Source: a virus. Taken from it: a DNA stretch of 64,000 nt. Below the pieces are notes generated by a model, which saw only the letters and a list, made by a program, of their open reading frames with translations, was not told the DNA's origin and did no database searches. This document shows positions 19,948 to 31,493 of the stretch, in pieces. Location of the stretch: IMG/VR virus record IMGVR_UViG_3300036781_000821, positions 27,888 to 91,887 of that record; one strand, 5' to 3'. How positions within the stretch are numbered: position 1 is the first letter of the stretch; each line of letters starts with the position of its first letter. A program made the position numbers and the translations under genes.

Positions 19948-20739
19948 CTACGATGCTTCCGCCAGCCGCTTCATATCGTCCAACGCCTCTTTGTTGGAGC
20001 AATAGAAGTTTGGGATTTTCTCAATCTTCGGATCGCTCTTGAGGTAGATCAACGCAGCAGCAGCCGGAGTTCCCATGCAAAACTCCATCGCCCGACCCGC
20101 ATCACCAGCAAGATGAACAACCCATCCCGCCTGGCAATGCGTCGTGTCGCAGGAGTGCCAGTTGTTCATGTCCAGCGCGTCGGGTTTGCACGCGGCCTCA
20201 TATACCGCTTTGTGAATGTCTTTAATGAACGGCACGCCATTGAGGTCGGCACCGCTCAGGACGGCATCGCGCAGGTCGGCACCGCGCAGGACGGCATCGC
20301 GCAGGACGGCACCGCTCAGGACGGCATCGCGCAGGTCGGCACCGCGCAGGACGGCATCGCGCAGGTCGGCACCGCGCAGGTCGGCACCGCGCAGGACGGC
20401 ATCGCGCAGGACGGCATCGCGCAGGTCGGCACCGCGCAGGTCGGCACCGCGCAGGACGGCATCGCGCAGGACGGCATCGCTCAGGACGGCACCGCGCAGG
20501 TCGGCATCGCTCAGGACGGCATCGCGCAGGACGGCATCGCGCAGGTCGGCACCGCGCAGGTCGGCACCGCGCAGGACGGCATCGCGCAGGTCGGCACCGC
20601 GCAGGACGGCATCGCGCAGGACGGCACCGCTCAGGACGGCATCGCTCTTAACAGCAGCTTCCAACGCCAGTTTCCAACTATCCGTTTCAATGGAGAAAAG
20701 CACGCTCCCCGTCCAACGACTCTTGATTTCAAACTTCAT
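19948..20739 (-). CDS. Pentapeptide-repeat protein
   Basis: 263 aa. After an N-terminal region of about 35 residues come about 27 consecutive five-residue units of the type A(D/V)L(R/S)(D/G), which form a right-handed quadrilateral beta-helix. A C-terminal globular part (about 95 residues, with HSCDTTHCQAGWVVHLAGDAG) follows. Some such proteins mimic DNA and bind gyrase; others are scaffolds. Units with Val in place of Asp/Asn are unusual. The underlying DNA is built from almost identical 15-base units (separate entry). Confidence 0.85.
   Translation of the reverse strand: MKFEIKSRWTGSVLFSIETDSWKLALEAAVKSDAVLSGAVLRDAVLRGADLRDAVLRGADLRGADLRDAVLRDAVLSDADLRGAVLSDAVLRDAVLRGADLRGADLRDAVLRDAVLRGADLRGADLRDAVLRGADLRDAVLSGAVLRDAVLRGADLRDAVLSGADLNGVPFIKDIHKAVYEAACKPDALDMNNWHSCDTTHCQAGWVVHLAGDAGRAMEFCMGTPAAAALIYLKSDPKIEKIPNFYCSNKEALDDMKRLAEAS
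20239..20645 (-). repeat. Near-perfect 15-bp tandem array
   Basis: About 27 head-to-tail 15-bp units, essentially two versions on the plus strand (GGTCGGCACCGCGCA and GGACGGCATCGCGCA) with occasional GCTCA endings. They encode the pentapeptide units. The low divergence points to recent expansion by slippage or recombination. Because 15 is a multiple of three, all frames stay open, creating long spurious ORFs on both strands. Confidence 0.95.
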
Positions 20740-21360: not shown

Positions 21361-22512
21361 ATGGCGACTGTCACAAATCCGCTGCCCTCCGGCTTCCAGC
21401 CGCCGCCCGCTGTTCTCGCGCCGAATTGGGCGGGAAGCGCGTTAAAGGCCGAAAGCACGTTCCACCAGCTCTCGCCATACATCGGAAAACTCAAGTCCTC
21501 CATCGCCGGATCGTTGATTGAACAGTTCACGCAACCGTCAGATGTGGTATACGATCCGTTCTCGGGAAGTGGCACGGTTGCGCTCGAAGCGTGGATTGCC
21601 GGCCGCCACATCATCGCCAACGATCTAAGCCCATACGCGGCGATCCTCACGCGCGCAAAACTTTTTCCCTACGATTCGCTTGAAGACGCGCTCGACGACA
21701 TGGAGGATCTTGAGGACTTCGCCGCAGCCGTGGCCGATAGCCTCGACCTTCGCACCGTTCCCCGATGGGTGCGCGAGTTTTTCCATACCCGAACCCTTCG
21801 CGAAACTCTCGGGTGGACTTACGTACTCAGGCAACGGCGCCGCTGGTTTCTGTTGGCATCCCTCATGGGCATCTTGCACCACCAGAGACCGGGCTTTCTA
21901 TCATTCCCGAGCAGCCACACCGTGCCCTATTTGCGGAAGAAGGCTTTCCCGCCCGCGAAGTTTCCCGATCTCTACGAATACCGCTCGCTGGCAGACCGCT
22001 TCGAGGCCAAGATTGAACGTGCCTTTTCCCGTGTTCCCGATCTGGACAGCGGAATTAACCGCGCATGCTTCCAGACATCGGCGCATCTCCTTACGCCCGC
22101 GCAGAAGGTGGATGCCATTATCACGAGCCCGCCGTACATGCGGCAGCTCGATTACGGCCGCGACAACCGCCTCCGACTTTGGTTCCTGGGTGTTCCCGAC
22201 TCCCGCGCGCTCGATCACGAGATTTCGCCGCGCAAGGACGCTTTCCTGAAGCTCATGGCGCGTTGCTTCAAGAAGTGGAAGTCGATCTTGAAGCCCGATC
22301 GCTATTGCATCCTCGTCGTGGGCGACGGCAGCAGCGAGTTAAAAGATGCCAATCTTCCCGTACTCATCTCCCAGATCGCGCAGAAGGAAGGGTTCGTCCA
22401 CGTCCTCGACCACACTGAAGCCATACCGAACGAGCGCCGGGTCCGCCGCGGACTGACGGGCAGCACGTCGGAAACAATCGTCATCCTTCGCAACGCATCG
22501 CGCAGTACATAG
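21361..22512 (+). CDS. DNA methyltransferase (N6-adenine/N4-cytosine type) of a three-gene cassette
   Basis: 383 aa. Motif I, DPFSGSGTV, is at residues 65-73 (S-adenosylmethionine binding) and motif IV, TSPPY, at 255-259 (catalysis), in I-to-IV order, with a long central insertion. It transfers a methyl group to an exocyclic amino group in DNA. The start is the only ATG after an in-frame TGA just upstream. Ten bases separate it from the DUF262 gene. It stands on the opposite strand to the surrounding phage genes. Together with the two genes downstream it suggests a self-protecting defence module. Confidence 0.85.
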   Translation: MATVTNPLPSGFQPPPAVLAPNWAGSALKAESTFHQLSPYIGKLKSSIAGSLIEQFTQPSDVVYDPFSGSGTVALEAWIAGRHIIANDLSPYAAILTRAKLFPYDSLEDALDDMEDLEDFAAAVADSLDLRTVPRWVREFFHTRTLRETLGWTYVLRQRRRWFLLASLMGILHHQRPGFLSFPSSHTVPYLRKKAFPPAKFPDLYEYRSLADRFEAKIERAFSRVPDLDSGINRACFQTSAHLLTPAQKVDAIITSPPYMRQLDYGRDNRLRLWFLGVPDSRALDHEISPRKDAFLKLMARCFKKWKSILKPDRYCILVVGDGSSELKDANLPVLISQIAQKEGFVHVLDHTEAIPNERRVRRGLTGSTSETIVILRNASRST

Positions 22513-22522
22513 GAGCGACACA

Positions 22523-23605
22523 ATGCAGCAGGTTTTCAACACGCGTAACTATAGCGTTCGAGATTTTGAAGAATGGCAGCAACGCGACGAGCTTGTACTA
22601 CAGCCCAAATTCCAACGCCGCGAGGTATGGAGCGAAAAGGCTCGCTCCTATTTGATCGACACGATCATCCGAGGAAAGCCCATACCCAAGGTCTATATGC
22701 GGCAGGATGTCAATCCCAAGACCCGCCGCGTATTGCGCGAAATCGTCGATGGGCAACAGCGACTTCATTCCGTTCTCAACTTCTTGAAGGATGGATTTAA
22801 GATCAGCCGCGCCCACAACGAAGAGTTTGGCGGAAAAACATTCAGCCAACTGAACGAGGACGCGCAACGCGACATCCTCAAATACGAGTTCGCCGTTGAC
22901 CTCCTTCAGGACATGCCGGACAACGAGATTTACAATATCTTTGCGCGGATCAACACCTATTCCGAGAAGCTGAAGGATCAAGAATTACGCAATTCAAAGT
23001 GGTACGGCTTCTTCAAGTCTTCCGTTTATTTGCTCGCCGAAGAGTTCACCACATTCTTTGTAGAAAACAAGCTCTTCACCGCGAAAACGATCCTCCGCAT
23101 GGCCGAGGCCGAATTCATATCGGATCTTCTCCTGTCGATGCACGAGGGAATCGTCGCGCGGTCCAAGATGGTGCTCGACAACGCATACAAAAAATACGAT
23201 GATGATTTCCCGTCTCGCAAAACCTACGAAAAAAGGTTCCGTGAGACCATTGACATCATCAAGGCCATCCACGGTGATGACCTCGGGGAATCCGAATTTC
23301 GAGCGCAGCGGCTTTTCTATCCGATGTTCTGCTCGATTTACCACCTCAAGTACGGCCTTCCCAATTTCACGCTTCCCCGAAAGACGATCAAGGTATCGGA
23401 CTACCCCAAGATGAAGACCGCCCTTGAGTCGGTCGATACGCTACTGGAAGAGATCAAAGAATCTCACACCAACCCGGCTGCGCTCGCTCTTTCGGATGTT
23501 GACAGCAAGTTCTACGACTCAATAACAGTGCACTTCGTCCACGCGGACAAGCGCGTAATTTCCACGACCTACATTTGCCGAAAACTCGCCAAGGTATTGA
23601 GCTAA
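22523..23605 (+). CDS. DUF262 (ParB-like/GmrSD-N-type) protein
   Basis: 360 aa. Characteristic DUF262 motifs are present: LQPKFQRREVW (about 26-36), IVDGQQRLHSV (about 74-84) and IFARINTYSEKL (about 139-150). The domain is a ParB/Srx-fold NTPase-like module found in GmrSD type IV restriction enzymes and several defence systems. The C-terminal half is helical, with no HNH motif, so the nuclease partner would have to be separate. An AGGAG-type site (gAGCGACAC region is weak) is not clear; close spacing suggests co-transcription with the methyltransferase. Confidence 0.85.
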   Translation: MQQVFNTRNYSVRDFEEWQQRDELVLQPKFQRREVWSEKARSYLIDTIIRGKPIPKVYMRQDVNPKTRRVLREIVDGQQRLHSVLNFLKDGFKISRAHNEEFGGKTFSQLNEDAQRDILKYEFAVDLLQDMPDNEIYNIFARINTYSEKLKDQELRNSKWYGFFKSSVYLLAEEFTTFFVENKLFTAKTILRMAEAEFISDLLLSMHEGIVARSKMVLDNAYKKYDDDFPSRKTYEKRFRETIDIIKAIHGDDLGESEFRAQRLFYPMFCSIYHLKYGLPNFTLPRKTIKVSDYPKMKTALESVDTLLEEIKESHTNPAALALSDVDSKFYDSITVHFVHADKRVISTTYICRKLAKVLS

Positions 23606-23611
23606 AAGTTT

Positions 23612-24253
23612 ATGCCTGCACCCCGCCTTCACTCAGCGCTAGTTTCGTTTTCCCGCTCCGTAGAAGAAGCACGGGACTTGGCTGATGACGCTCACCGATG
23701 GTCCACGCCCCCGCGCCCAGGCGCACGCTCCCAAATCACAATCCAACGGCGCAACACACTTACCGAGATGGCCTTTTTGAGAGCCTTCACAAGTTGGGAA
23801 AGCTTTTTAGAAGATACATTCCTTCTTTATTTGTTGGGTCATAAACCACCAAAGGGAGCGCCTCCCCGCCGTTATGGGTTTCCTCAAACCCCGGATGCGG
23901 CGGCAGAATGGTGTACCGATGGTAAGCCATATGCCAAATGGCACGTGAACGACGTGCAGCGCAGGGCGAACCGATGGTTCAAAGATGGAAAGCCGTTCAC
24001 TCCCGCGCTCCAAAGCCAGCAATCCCGACTGATGCAGCTCGTTAGCATTCGCAACGCGATTGCCCATGAATCCGACAGCGCCAAAGGTAAATTTGAAAAC
24101 GTCGTTCGCACTGAACTTGGGGCCGTGCCGCCGAACACGACGGTGGGTTCATTCTTGATGACGACCAAACCGAACACAACGCCTCCGATTTCGTTTCTGG
24201 AATTTTATGTCAGCGAGATTCTCCGGGCCGCTCAGAACATTGTCCCGAGATGA
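23612..24253 (+). CDS. HEPN-domain protein (putative RNase) of the cassette
   Basis: 213 aa. Residues 147-152 RNAIAH form the R-x4-H motif of HEPN ribonucleases; helices before it (TLTEMAFLRAFTSWESFLEDTF) match the HEPN four-helix bundle of the MAE_28990/RiboL-PSP type. Six bases follow the DUF262 stop, so the three genes form one unit. HEPN proteins often kill or arrest infected cells by RNA cleavage. Here the methyltransferase or DUF262 protein may control it; that is inference. Confidence 0.75.
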   Translation: MPAPRLHSALVSFSRSVEEARDLADDAHRWSTPPRPGARSQITIQRRNTLTEMAFLRAFTSWESFLEDTFLLYLLGHKPPKGAPPRRYGFPQTPDAAAEWCTDGKPYAKWHVNDVQRRANRWFKDGKPFTPALQSQQSRLMQLVSIRNAIAHESDSAKGKFENVVRTELGAVPPNTTVGSFLMTTKPNTTPPISFLEFYVSEILRAAQNIVPR

Positions 24254-24327
24254 CGGAGGAAGGATTCGAACCTTCCTTACTGCGGGATTCGCACCCCATG
24301 TCAGCTTCCCTCGCCAGAGGCACCGTC
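24251..24327 (-). tRNA. tRNA-like sequence overlapping the HEPN stop codon (possibly degenerate)
   Basis: 77 bases on the minus strand with a seven-base acceptor stem (one T-T mismatch), a short CCTC/GAGG D-type hairpin and a perfect five-base T stem around the loop TTCGAAT. The anticodon arm is not canonical: a second T-arm-like hairpin (GGGG, loop TGCGAAT, CCCG) occupies it, so no anticodon can be assigned. Encoded CCA is absent. It may be a decayed tRNA or an attachment remnant marking the edge of the defence cassette. Confidence 0.35.
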
Positions 24328-24391
24328 AAAACTGTTTCGTCCGCACCTTCAAAGGCGTAATCCACGTCGTAAGGGAAGGCAGACGCTTCGT

Positions 24392-25665: not shown

Positions 25666-25886
25666 CGTTTCGTCTTCCGGTCGACGATAAATCTGACCTT
25701 GCTCGGATCGTTCCAGTCCCGTTGACCCTTGACGACAAACTTCAGGTGACGAAGCGCGAACAACCGCGCCGCCATTGCGTCTTTGGCGGCCACGGTGAAC
25801 TCGCTCTTTAGCTGAAGATTGAGCGCGAGCAGCGCGAGCCCGACACGCGAGCGAACCTTCCGTTTGCGGGACACGCGCGTGGACAT
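25662..25886 (-). CDS. Small basic protein, 74 aa
   Basis: Very basic N-terminus (MSTRVSRKRKVRSR) and C-terminal VDRKTKR; the middle is helical. It is linked by overlaps to the SSB gene upstream and the membrane protein downstream. Possibly nucleic-acid binding; no family recognised. Confidence 0.55.
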   Translation of the reverse strand: MSTRVSRKRKVRSRVGLALLALNLQLKSEFTVAAKDAMAARLFALRHLKFVVKGQRDWNDPSKVRFIVDRKTKR

Positions 25887-26239
25887 TATTTGCCGCCTTT
25901 GGTTTGTTGTTGATCCTTCGGCCCATCGAGGAGAATCACGCGATCCACCACGACCGCTAGACGGCTATGACGCACCTGGTCTTGGCCGTCCCACACCTTC
26001 TTGACGAGATGGCCCTCGATGAACACACCCTTGCCCTTCTTCACGTACTTCTCGAAGATGTCGGAGGTCTTGCCCCACGCCTCGAAGTCGATGAAGTTCA
26101 CGCCACGCTCGCGGGTATCCCCTTGACCCACGGTGTAGTTCACGCCGAGCGAACCCGTCGTGACCTTGCTGCTCTTGGTTGTTCTCGTTTCGGGATCGGC
26201 GGCCACGTGGCCGGCCAACTGCACTTTGTTGTAGTCCAC
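25886..26239 (-). CDS. ssb: Single-stranded DNA-binding protein (first copy)
   Basis: GTG at 26239 follows AAGGAAG closely and opens DYNKVQLAGHVAADPE, the start of the OB-fold. FIDFEAWGKTSDIFEKYVKKG and VFIEGHLVKKVWDG match the SSB core. The product is about 117 aa and lacks the usual acidic DDIPF tail, unlike the second SSB at 26.8 kb. It coats ssDNA in replication or, given the relaxase, transferred plasmid DNA. Confidence 0.85.
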   Translation of the reverse strand: MDYNKVQLAGHVAADPETRTTKSSKVTTGSLGVNYTVGQGDTRERGVNFIDFEAWGKTSDIFEKYVKKGKGVFIEGHLVKKVWDGQDQVRHSRLAVVVDRVILLDGPKDQQQTKGGK

Positions 26240-26252
26240 TTGCTTCCTTCGG

Positions 26253-26747
26253 TTAGAGGTTGATGCCGAGTATGTACATGCCGATGAAGGCCACAATCCC
26301 GCCCACGACCTTGGCGGCTCTCACGATGCCGGGAATGAGCGCGATGGGAACGCACTCTTCGAGTGCGGGAACTTCATCCGGGCAGTACTTGGCGATTACG
26401 TAGTCGATTTGGCGAATGGCGGCATCTGCCGTCTTGCGCGAACCCATATCCCACGCATCCACTTCATTTTCTGGTTGCCAACTTAGGGAGTACCAGATTT
26501 CCTGTAGAGCATTAAGCTGCTCTGCGTCACGCAACGCAATACTAGCCTCATGTCCGTTTACATTCAAATAGAGCGCCTCTCCTATGTGGGACACTCCCTT
26601 AAGTTCGCGCATCCAACCAACGATGCAACATGAGTGAATTTGCATATGAGGAATTGGGCGCGGATTTGTCATCCATAAACACGCAGGATTCGCGTCGATC
26701 ATCCCGCGCACCTGCAACAACGTTTTCTTATCAATTACTGGATTCAT
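26253..26747 (-). CDS. Hypothetical protein with C-terminal membrane helix, 164 aa
   Basis: ATG at 26747. A soluble N-terminal domain contains several Cys, Trp and His residues (MIDANPACLWMTNP, HSCCIVGWM) and the C-terminal 25 residues form a hydrophobic helix (VVGGIVAFIGMYILGI). Sits between the two SSB genes. No family recognised. Confidence 0.6.
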   Translation of the reverse strand: MNPVIDKKTLLQVRGMIDANPACLWMTNPRPIPHMQIHSCCIVGWMRELKGVSHIGEALYLNVNGHEASIALRDAEQLNALQEIWYSLSWQPENEVDAWDMGSRKTADAAIRQIDYVIAKYCPDEVPALEECVPIALIPGIVRAAKVVGGIVAFIGMYILGINL

Positions 26748-26769: not shown

Positions 26770-27186
26770 TTAAAACGGAATGTCATCGCCGCTTTCGTCT
26801 ACGGCTCGACCTTCCTCTGGCGGCGCTTCCTCTCGCCTTGGCTCGCGTTTCTGCGAATCAGGCGACGAGAGAAATTGAACCCGATCAGCGCGAATGCGTG
26901 TGCGGCTTTTCTTTTCACCACCGGATTCCCATTGCTCGGTTTTCAGCCGCCCTTCTACCAACACGGCCCGGCCCTTGGCGAGATATTCCTTGCAAGCTTC
27001 GGCTTGACTGCCCCAGACCTCCACCTCGCCCCAATAGACCTCTTCCTTCACCCCGCCGGAATCGGTTTTATATTTGTGGTTCACTGCCAGCCCAAAATTG
27101 GACACGGCAGTTCCTTTCGGCGTGTACTTGCATTCGGGGTCGCGGGTGAGATGCCCAACGAGAATGACGCGATTGTAATTAGGCAT
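26770..27186 (-). CDS. ssb: Single-stranded DNA-binding protein (second copy)
   Basis: ATG at 27186 opens MPNYNRVILVGHLTRDPE; VYWGEVEVWGSQAEACKEYLAKG is the typical second half of the OB-fold. The C-terminus ends DDIPF, the peptide that docks SSB-interacting proteins. About 138 aa. It overlaps the ERF gene by eight bases, so it probably works with the annealing protein in recombination. Confidence 0.92.
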   Translation of the reverse strand: MPNYNRVILVGHLTRDPECKYTPKGTAVSNFGLAVNHKYKTDSGGVKEEVYWGEVEVWGSQAEACKEYLAKGRAVLVEGRLKTEQWESGGEKKSRTRIRADRVQFLSSPDSQKREPRREEAPPEEGRAVDESGDDIPF

Positions 27187-27796
27187 TTTTGGCCGCGCCT
27201 TTCTTCTTGGGTTCCACACCAAGCCGTTTGGCGGTCGCGGCGTAGAGCGACGCGAAGTGGTTGAGTTCTTGCTGGCTCAGTTTGTCCTTTATCGCCGTCA
27301 CCATCTTGCTGGTGTTTTCCAAGTCACCCGCGCTTTCGGAGGCAAGGAACTTCGATTCGATGTCCTCTAGCTTGTCTTTCGACACCAAGCTTGGGACTGC
27401 TCGCTTCATCGCGCCCTCAGCATCGTCGTCTTCAGTCACAACCCCGACAATCGCAGCCAGTGAATAGCGCCGTGCGTAGGTAATTGCGGAACCGACAGCT
27501 TGCGGATCAGTCTTAACCGCCGTCATCGTCAGCGTCCCGCTAATAAACTGCCCGGATTTGTGCATGAGCACCGTCTCGACGCTCACCGTACCCGGCACAT
27601 CTTCGGGCGCGAATACCTGAGACACGGCCAGATCGTTTGCCGTCAACGCTTCCCGGCAAGCATCCGTGACGCTTTCCAAATCCGCATACTTCGACTTGAA
27701 GTAGGGATTGTCCGCATCCTTCAGGGCTTTCTTCACTGCTTTCTGCGTGAGCACCAACGCCGCAGCCAACTCTCCAATGGAATCGCTTCTATTCAT
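27179..27796 (-). CDS. erf: ERF-family single-strand annealing protein
   Basis: 205 aa. The ERF signature is clear: NPYFKSKYADLESV near residue 30 and DPQAVGSAITYARRYSLAAIVGV near residue 100, followed by EDDDA. ERF proteins anneal ssDNA in phage recombination and genome circularisation. Lys-rich C-terminus. Overlaps the SSB gene, an operon logic seen in many phages. Confidence 0.9.
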   Translation of the reverse strand: MNRSDSIGELAAALVLTQKAVKKALKDADNPYFKSKYADLESVTDACREALTANDLAVSQVFAPEDVPGTVSVETVLMHKSGQFISGTLTMTAVKTDPQAVGSAITYARRYSLAAIVGVVTEDDDAEGAMKRAVPSLVSKDKLEDIESKFLASESAGDLENTSKMVTAIKDKLSQQELNHFASLYAATAKRLGVEPKKKGAAKNA

Positions 27797-29061: not shown

Positions 29062-29961
29062 ATGACCAAGGAAGCGCTCAGCCAGATCACGGACGTTCTT
29101 TTCGAGCGTCTTTGCGAGGCGATGGAATCCGGCGCGAACGACGATGTGAAAGCCGTTCTCAAGTCAATGAGCGCGTTTCACGACTACAGCTTTGCGAATG
29201 TCTGCCTCATCCTGAGCCAGTTCCCGAAGGCTACGAAGGTCGCGGGTTTCCGCACGTGGGAGAAATTCGACCGCCACGTGGTGAAAGGATCAAAGGGAAT
29301 CGGTATCCGGGTTCCCATGCGCTACAAGAAAGGCGAGGCGACCGAGGAGGAGCAAGCGACCGGAATCTTTTTCGGCGTTGGGCATGTGTTCGACATTTCC
29401 CAGACCGAGGGCGCACCACTCCCCGACTTTCACAGTGATCCGGTTAGGGGCGAACCCGCCGCATTGTTGGAGAAGTTGCGCGAGAACATCACCGCGAGCG
29501 GGATCAAGCTTGACTACGTTGAACACCTTGCTGGAGCCGAAGGTGTTTCCAAGGGCGGCGCGATTGCGATCAAAGACGGCCACGAACGCCCGAAAGACTT
29601 CGCCGTTCTTTGCCACGAATGGGCGCACGAACTCTTGCATAGGGATGGCAACCGCCACGCGCTGACCAAGACGCAAAAGGAAACGGAGGCCGAAGCGACT
29701 GCCTACATCGTCTCCACCGCAATCGGCCTCGATCTTGGCAACAGTTCCGCGAACTACATCGCGCTTTACAACGGCGACAAAGCCACGCTCAAAGCCAGCA
29801 TGGACAGGATTCAAAAAACCGCGCAGTTCATTTTGAAGGGGCTGGGTTACGGACGGCAGGAAGAACCCTACCACAGCACACGCCCCTCTTTAGCCCTCAG
29901 CCAAATAACCCCGGCGAGTTACGCCAACCCGCCACCAAAACAGAAAGAACCAGCAATATGA
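29062..29961 (+). CDS. ardC: ArdC-like antirestriction protein with zincin domain
   Basis: 299 aa. The N-terminal ~125 residues have the ArdC ssDNA-binding pattern (YSFANVCLILSQ, then GFRTWEKFDRHVVKGSKGI). Residues 185-189 HEWAH with downstream ETEAEATAYIV form a metallopeptidase (zincin) site. ArdC proteins protect incoming single-stranded plasmid DNA from host restriction. Its co-operonic ParB and the relaxase downstream support a mobile-plasmid lifestyle. Confidence 0.85.
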   Translation: MTKEALSQITDVLFERLCEAMESGANDDVKAVLKSMSAFHDYSFANVCLILSQFPKATKVAGFRTWEKFDRHVVKGSKGIGIRVPMRYKKGEATEEEQATGIFFGVGHVFDISQTEGAPLPDFHSDPVRGEPAALLEKLRENITASGIKLDYVEHLAGAEGVSKGGAIAIKDGHERPKDFAVLCHEWAHELLHRDGNRHALTKTQKETEAEATAYIVSTAIGLDLGNSSANYIALYNGDKATLKASMDRIQKTAQFILKGLGYGRQEEPYHSTRPSLALSQITPASYANPPPKQKEPAI

Positions 29962-31493
29962 CGACAGAACTACCCGTAAAGTCCCTCGAACCGTCCCCGA
30001 CGAACCCGAGGAAAACTATCGACAAAACCACAATCGCGGAACTGGCCGAGTCCATAAAGACAAACGGCCTCCTGCAGCCGCTTCTCGTCCGGCCCCTAGG
30101 CAAGAGCAAAGACCGCTATGAAGTAGTTTGCGGTAATCGCCGCTTGCTGGCCTTGCGGCAAACTGGCCTCGAAAAATGTCCGGTAACAGTCCGTGAGCTG
30201 ACCGACGAGGAAGCCGTCGACGCGCAGCAGGTCGAGAACTTGCAGCGCGAGGACGTGCCACCGCTCGAAGAGGGAGAGGCTTTCGCCGCACTGGTGAAAA
30301 AGTACAACGTGGAAATGGTCGCGTTCAAGGTGGGCAAGACTCCGGCGTTCATTCGCCGCCGCATCATGTTGACCAGACTAACGGGCGATGCCCGGACGCT
30401 CCTGCAAAAAGGCGAGTTGCCGATCAAGTCGGCAGAGATGATCGCCGGGATCGAGGACGAGAAAGCGCGAAAGGCATTGGTCGACGGTCTCCGATGGGCT
30501 GGGAAGTCGCCCGAGGATATAGCGGGAGCTATTCGCCAGACGATTCTTCAGAAGATCAGTAAGGCCCCGTTCGACACGCGCAAGGTTTACGGATGCGCCG
30601 ATGAGCAGCCGACAACCTGCGACGTTTGCCCGTTTAACACCGCAGCCAAGAGCGGTAGTCTGTTCCCCGAATTGGCGAAGGACGCGCAATGCACAAATGG
30701 CAAATGCTTCCGGGCAAAGACCGACGCGCATTACCAGATCAAGGTTGACGAACATTTGCAGAAAGGTGGGAGCAAGTTGGGCGAGCAGGATGCGAAGAAG
30801 TGCTGGCCGCGCAATTACTATAGCGGCGGGGACATGCCTGTCAGCGATCGCGCACCGTTCATCGAATTGAGTGTTGTGCAGCCGCTCTTCAAAAAGGCGA
30901 AGGTGGATTTGCCGAAGGATAAAGTGTTTATCGTTCGCAATCCGAGCACCCAGAAGGTTCACTACGTCGTCGCGCGGGATTTCGCTAGCAAGGTAATGCC
31001 CAAACCAAAGAAAGAGGAACCGACACGCAGCAGGGGAGAGTCTGCCGCCGCGAAGCTCAAGTACGAAATCGAAACCGCCGTGCGCGAGCAAGCGCAAGTG
31101 GCTTACGCGACGGAATTCGCAAAGCTGAAGGCGATTGACGGTAGAATCCACCGCGCACTCGCGAACATTCTTGGCGACGAAATCCATGGAAGCGATTGGG
31201 AATTGTTTGCCAAAGCTTTCGCAACCGAGACCCCTCCACAGGGCAAGGGCTACGATGCGGCGCAGAAGTGGGGCAAGAAATTCTTGGCAGGACTGGACAA
31301 GAATCAACTCCCGGCTTTCATCGTGTTGGCCATCGCCATGAAGGACTGCTATGGCGCGACACCGGAAATACGTGCATTGGCTACAGCCGCAGGAGTGGAT
31401 TGCAAGAAACTCGAAGCAAACGTAACCAAACAGGTCAAGGCTCAGCTTGCGGAGCGAAAGAATGCGGAACCCGCGACCAAGGCGGCAGCATGA
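29958..31493 (+). CDS. parB: ParB/RepB/Spo0J-family partition protein
   Basis: 511 aa. N-terminal ParB domain: SPTNPRKTIDK, LLQPLLVRPLGK, EVVCGNRRLLAL, QQVENLQREDVPPLEEGEAF, then an HTH (AFKVGKTPAFIRRRIMLTRL). A Cys-rich segment (TTCDVCPFNTA and CTNGKCF) and a Lys-rich C-terminus follow. ParB loads on centromere-like sites to segregate the replicon. No ParA is visible nearby, which is odd and may mean ParB acts in another role. ATGA overlap with ArdC. Confidence 0.88.
   Translation: MTTELPVKSLEPSPTNPRKTIDKTTIAELAESIKTNGLLQPLLVRPLGKSKDRYEVVCGNRRLLALRQTGLEKCPVTVRELTDEEAVDAQQVENLQREDVPPLEEGEAFAALVKKYNVEMVAFKVGKTPAFIRRRIMLTRLTGDARTLLQKGELPIKSAEMIAGIEDEKARKALVDGLRWAGKSPEDIAGAIRQTILQKISKAPFDTRKVYGCADEQPTTCDVCPFNTAAKSGSLFPELAKDAQCTNGKCFRAKTDAHYQIKVDEHLQKGGSKLGEQDAKKCWPRNYYSGGDMPVSDRAPFIELSVVQPLFKKAKVDLPKDKVFIVRNPSTQKVHYVVARDFASKVMPKPKKEEPTRSRGESAAAKLKYEIETAVREQAQVAYATEFAKLKAIDGRIHRALANILGDEIHGSDWELFAKAFATETPPQGKGYDAAQKWGKKFLAGLDKNQLPAFIVLAIAMKDCYGATPEIRALATAAGVDCKKLEANVTKQVKAQLAERKNAEPATKAAA

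Follow-up and report, generated by a model that had tools for sequence, protein, structure and literature searches.

In a stretch of 64,000 nucleotides (here, the window) from a 91.9 kb virus record of environmental DNA, three adjacent genes encode a DNA methylase, a DUF262 protein, and a HEPN protein. With a probability of roughly one-half, we read this cassette as an anti-phage (or anti-superinfection) system resembling restriction–modification (R–M), one in which a DUF262-HEPN alarm module stands in for the restriction endonuclease (REase). The proteins have recognizable domains with conserved active sites, the order of their genes is fixed, the genes are inherited together, and relatives of the methylase carry REases or toxic effectors in the same slot.

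The three open reading frames (ORFs) are intact and all on the plus strand (21361-22512, 22523-23605, and 23612-24253), lie 10 and 6 bp apart, and are flanked on either side by ORFs on the minus strand, just as an initial annotation of this DNA had described. Pfam and sequence motifs likewise bear out its domain calls. The first gene (21361-22512) encodes a 383-aa DNA amino-methyltransferase of the permuted N6/N4 type (Pfam N6_N4_Mtase, 2.9e-13; PADLOC MTase_II, 1.6e-24), with motif I (DPFSGSGT) and TSPPY in permuted order. Motifs I and IV are conserved across the family, and its hallmark, HHQRPGFLS[FY]PSSHxVPYLR, is near-invariant in homologues as HHxRPGFLS[FY]PxSHxVPYLR.

The second gene (22523-23605) codes for a 360-aa DUF262 (GmrS-N, ParB/Srx-like) protein, a putative NTPase sensor that contains VDGQQRL and lacks the DUF1524 nuclease. 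GmrSD_N (1.4e-20, residues 25–159) is the only Pfam match above its cut-off, and the DGQQR segment (D76-R80) is invariant in 24 of 24 aligned relatives. While a sequence search of the PDB with this protein found nothing, its AlphaFold model (pLDDT 88.6) matches ParB structures and that of the type IV enzyme BrxU (E 3.9e-4, prob 1.00). Among PADLOC models, NsnA gives the best match (7.3e-36, 122 bits), ahead of PD-T4-2_A (3e-21, 74 bits). Moreover, the N-terminal part matches the 372-position REase_II model PDLC03418 (9.4e-18), which we attribute to the DUF262 domain that both share and do not count as evidence of a catalytic nuclease. A separate DUF262 clade (L030-L037, L039, and L040) has no HEPN partner, and a gene of ~190–205 aa is consistently found upstream.

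The third gene (23612-24253) encodes a 213-aa HEPN protein, a putative RNase effector with RNAIAH (R147 and H152). It matches PF18735 (HEPN_RiboL-PSP, 1.9e-6), and not PF18737, with a score exactly at the Pfam cut-off of 28.4 bits. Both R147 and H152 are invariant in 20 homologues. We infer that the protein would act as an RNase. A PDB sequence search with this protein found nothing, and the best structural matches of its AlphaFold model (pLDDT 93.6) are the toxins of HEPN-MNT pairs, though these are weak (prob 0.94, E 0.24).

To look for homologous three-gene sets, as the initial annotation had proposed, we scanned whole genomes and found four DUF262 relatives at 62–80% identity, each with a methylase in front and a HEPN protein behind. 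These are in a Doudnabacteria-labelled bin (L008), in Acidobacteriota (L009 and L011), and in Reyranella (L028), which brings the triple-gene sets to five with the window included. Their methylases are 59–74% identical to that of the window, and neighboring genes overlap by up to 26 bp or stand up to 22 bp apart, with the order fixed. Since the same gene order is found in four independent genomes, the arrangement is not a chance one. The L011 DUF262 gene is split by an apparent frameshift, either genuine or introduced during assembly. The five methylase-linked genes group as a single clade in the DUF262 tree (SH-aLRT 100), with bare DUF262-HEPN pairs around it, and so the methylase most simply joined once. 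Its three closest members (window, L011, and L008) also come together in the methylase tree. Moreover, pN is far below pS in all three genes (for example, 0.15 versus 0.83 for the window and L011 HEPN genes), and the one unsaturated dN/dS value is 0.11, synonymous change being otherwise near saturation. By these substitution patterns, all three cassette genes are under purifying selection.

Outside this clade, the picture is that of a pair. HEPN proteins of the window family are located directly behind DUF262 in most relatives (DUF262 roughly 33–47% identical), and the pairs are hosted by plasmids, proviruses, and chromosomes of many phyla. However, no DUF262 protein less than 60% identical to that of the window has a methylase of the window family adjacent, and such a methylase is absent from 14 of 15 checked genomes carrying a bare pair, which means that control of the HEPN protein does not need methylation in general. 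The small number of triple-gene sets and the split L011 gene count against our reading of the cassette. So does the lack of an adjacent methylase in most pairs, which would also suit an improbable alternative in which two independent units are linked by chance, namely a DUF262-HEPN pair that is a complete PD-T4-2-like system and a methylase that is an orphan or protects DNA. A HEPN gene behind DUF262 is also near-universal for a second HEPN family (PF18737), with this layout in 13 of 14 cyanobacterial loci. Yet in a virus, in Acidobacteriota, in Reyranella, and in the Doudnabacteria bin alike, each of the five DUF262 genes in the clade has the methylase immediately before it, and the purifying selection extends to all three genes.

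Further evidence for an R–M-like unit comes from the other partners of the methylase family. An REase-like gene adjoins the methylase in four loci (L138, L139, L140, and L145), from three genomes of the class of G003 and one Actinomycetota-sample genome, and for the two neighbors that were tested, PADLOC REase_II gave 1e-24 (L139) and 1e-28 (L145). In one Salmonella plasmid and three proviruses, the methylase precedes a ParA-like ATPase and then a ThsA-like SIR2_2 protein (L042:4010-7069, L087:5926-8977, L088:5935-8994, and L089:5935-8992). In five other loci, it is followed by kinase and ORC-CDC6-like ATPase domains (L083:4611-10183, L090:5341-10518, L091:5911-11019, L043:3905-8920, and L141:4272-7692), and where the contig is long enough, the next gene matches CARF6 models or is a homologue of one that does. 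The kinase set is adjoined by thyX in L043 (annotated) and L083 (judged from the predicted sequence). At L142:3886-8035, a family methylase precedes a 206-aa protein and then a 762-aa protein with a sub-threshold HATPase_c_3 match, possibly another effector set.

These partners have changed hands. The kinase-linked methylase of L083 nests inside the DUF262-HEPN methylase clade (100/97, methylase tree), and directly behind the HEPN gene of L008 (L008:7059-10021) is an 81-residue methylase stump that is 75% identical to the C-terminus of the L090 methylase and directly precedes a kinase protein 85% identical to that of L090, and then a CARF-like gene. Taken together, the nesting and the stump indicate that effector sets have been exchanged. 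In L008, a kinase–CARF set appears to have lost most of its resident methylase to an incoming DUF262–HEPN cassette that brought a methylase of its own. On the methylase tree, which supports exchange, all partner labels together need 7 changes versus a shuffled mean of 16.1. As for its distribution, the methylase family is present in 10 of 299 genomes of the class of the Sulfopaludibacter genome, while searches of ~400 Pseudomonadota, 290 Reyranella-class, 195 Verrucomicrobiota (the phylum of the L022 Limisphaerales), and 198 Actinomycetota genomes gave only Reyranella and one Actinomycetota-sample match (with the REase partner). A viral scan with the methylase alone gave no match, and an alignment-based one did.

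Somewhat more tentatively than for the cassette itself, we propose a modular class of toxin-coupled R–M systems in which this one R–M-type methylase family stays constant, whose restriction slot would be filled by an REase, DUF262 plus HEPN, ParA-like plus SIR2, or kinase/ATPase plus CARF-like proteins, and where a missing methyl mark would trigger RNA cutting, NAD depletion, or signaling rather than DNA cleavage. R–M is usually taken to protect through the cutting of unmarked DNA. If one methylase family retains the mark while its cutter gives way to sets of sensor plus toxin, R–M would be tied to abortive infection, and tracking that family would offer a route to other such systems.

For the cassette, the proposed sequence of events would begin with the methylase marking a short sequence on the genomes of the cell and the resident element. 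DUF262, as a nucleotide-dependent DNA sensor of the ParB/Srx fold, would engage unmarked incoming DNA and then free or activate the HEPN protein, which would cut RNA, probably tRNA or other RNAs of translation, and the infected cell would stop. Since members of the methylase family also take part in ordinary type II R–M, self is the simplest meaning of the mark. On this reading, the sensor would respond to the absence of the mark, and the outcome would be phage defense by abortive infection.

The main rival is a modification-activated system, as with SspE and type IV enzymes, in which DUF262 recognizes phage modifications or the mark left by its partner methylase, and HEPN activity is licensed or tuned by that mark. 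Sequence cannot decide this polarity, though we regard the rival as rather unlikely. DUF262 proteins with known ligands (GmrSD, BrxU, and SspE) read modified DNA, and SspE is stimulated by the phosphorothioate mark of its own system (PMC10952713), which speaks against the sensing of unmarked DNA; PMC12707154 is cited in the same context, and the predicted fold of the window DUF262 matches that of BrxU. On the other hand, members of this methylase family also partner a plain type II REase, an arrangement where the mark protects, and the ParA/SIR2 and kinase/CARF sets have no DUF262 at all. With a natural methylase partner at hand, the question of whether DUF262 responds to marked or unmarked DNA would become directly testable.

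In L009, the cassette has a type IIG enzyme on one side and a Druantia DruE-like gene on the other, a neighborhood of defense genes; location in defense islands was one of the things that the initial annotation had suggested scoring. Of the unit it envisaged, combining self-marking, sensing, and killing, the architecture holds up (gene order, co-inheritance, the L009 neighborhood, and the methylase partners), while the combination is not wholly new. That the cassette and its relatives reside on viruses and plasmids, that HEPN proteins frequently serve as the toxin in two-gene modules, and that the nearest folds here are, weakly, HEPN-MNT toxins would all be compatible with an addiction (toxin–antitoxin) cassette stabilizing a mobile element, where DUF262 holds the HEPN toxin, the methylase is an antidote or regulator, and there is little direct defense. 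We consider this quite improbable against the placement of the L009 cassette among defense genes, the defense-type effectors that partner the methylase in the other sets, and the finding that PD-T4-2, itself a DUF262-HEPN system, gave E. coli protection against T4 when tested (Vassallo et al., 2022; PMC9519451).

In the virus record, there are a major head protein, an Erf recombinase, a ParB-like protein, and three tyrosine recombinases. The record had been labelled a phage-plasmid, a reading we dropped because a search of it for ParA found none; the three tyrosine recombinases do not support the label either. The ParB-like protein (29958-31493, plus strand) matches a ParB-like partition family in PHROGs and has a weaker similarity to a DNA methyltransferase family. 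Also in the window, both on the minus strand, are an extended series of pentapeptide-like repeats of the ADLR/AVLR type, for which a short DNA repeat codes (19948-20739), and two neighboring ORFs (25886-26296 and 26770-27222) that each resemble single-stranded DNA-binding proteins by eye.

A tRNA-like sequence had been noted at the last stop codon of the cassette as the possible mark of an insertion edge. Indeed, an element on the minus strand (24251-24328) touches the HEPN stop codon and folds better than its own shuffles (-32.4 kcal/mol, z = -2.43), though it may be no part of the cassette. ARAGORN called no tRNA here (a loosened, low threshold gave hundreds of spurious matches), and against Rfam the best tRNA score was 16 bits (tRNA-Sec), with a gathering score of 47. 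While the fold thus stands, neither program recognizes it as a tRNA, and the proposed insertion edge finds no support. Direct or inverted repeats of at least 10 bp joining the two cassette flanks were not found. Close relatives of the virus, sought in IMG/VR by the major head protein and the nearest downstream gene, gave no match, and an empty site and insertion boundaries could therefore not be shown.

Among known systems, PD-T4-2 has the same two domain families as the window pair, DUF262 and a PF18735 (RiboL-PSP-type) HEPN (PMC10952713), and its PD-T4-2_A model matches the window DUF262, as given above. Unlike the window cassette, it has two modelled components (A and B) and no methylase. 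PD-T4-2_B gave no PADLOC match to the window HEPN up to E = 1, but does match the HEPN of a pair relative (L004) at E 0.048, and the window HEPN shares that Pfam family and position. An earlier survey of HEPN operons already lists the same triad of gene types, 13 years ago, with the entries ‘Ribo L-PSP-HEPN ... operon with ParB’ and ‘MAE_28990 ... in operon with a ParB nuclease and DNA methylase genes’ (Anantharaman et al., 2013; PMC3710099). However, its methylase-linked HEPN (MAE_28990) belongs to PF18737, whereas that of the window belongs to PF18735. None of the 14 cyanobacterial DUF262-PF18737 loci that we checked has a methylase of the window family, and the sole methylase near them is a convergent gene (L115) of the C5 type by motif. 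Together, PD-T4-2 and the 2013 survey mean that a DUF262-HEPN pair is not new and that a neighboring methylase has some precedent. The part of the literature covered by our search (bioRxiv was outside its scope) contained no DUF262–HEPN–methylase or methylase–ParA–SIR2 defense system, and PADLOC-DB was used in its 2023 version, so a newer description of the cassette may exist.

Other systems share single elements. Menshen, whose NsnA is the best PADLOC match of the window DUF262, pairs DUF262 with an OLD-type nuclease (PMC10952713), and neither OLD-type nor NsnB/NsnC models matched the three cassette proteins in Pfam or PADLOC. In SspABCD-SspE, GmrSD, and BrxU, a DUF262 sensor with DGQQR is coupled to a nuclease and, for Ssp, also to DNA modification genes. 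That nuclease is a DUF1524 HNH domain, which the window DUF262 lacks, and the Ssp mark is phosphorothioate and not methylation. Lastly, no cognate DNA-cleaving REase is found beside the window methylase, the adjacent co-directional ORFs being the DUF262 and HEPN genes. The type II R–M loci (L138, L139, L140, and L145) have, as does the window, a homologous methylase, adjacent genes, and presumed self-marking, but where they hold an REase, the slot in the window is taken by a sensor and a HEPN effector.
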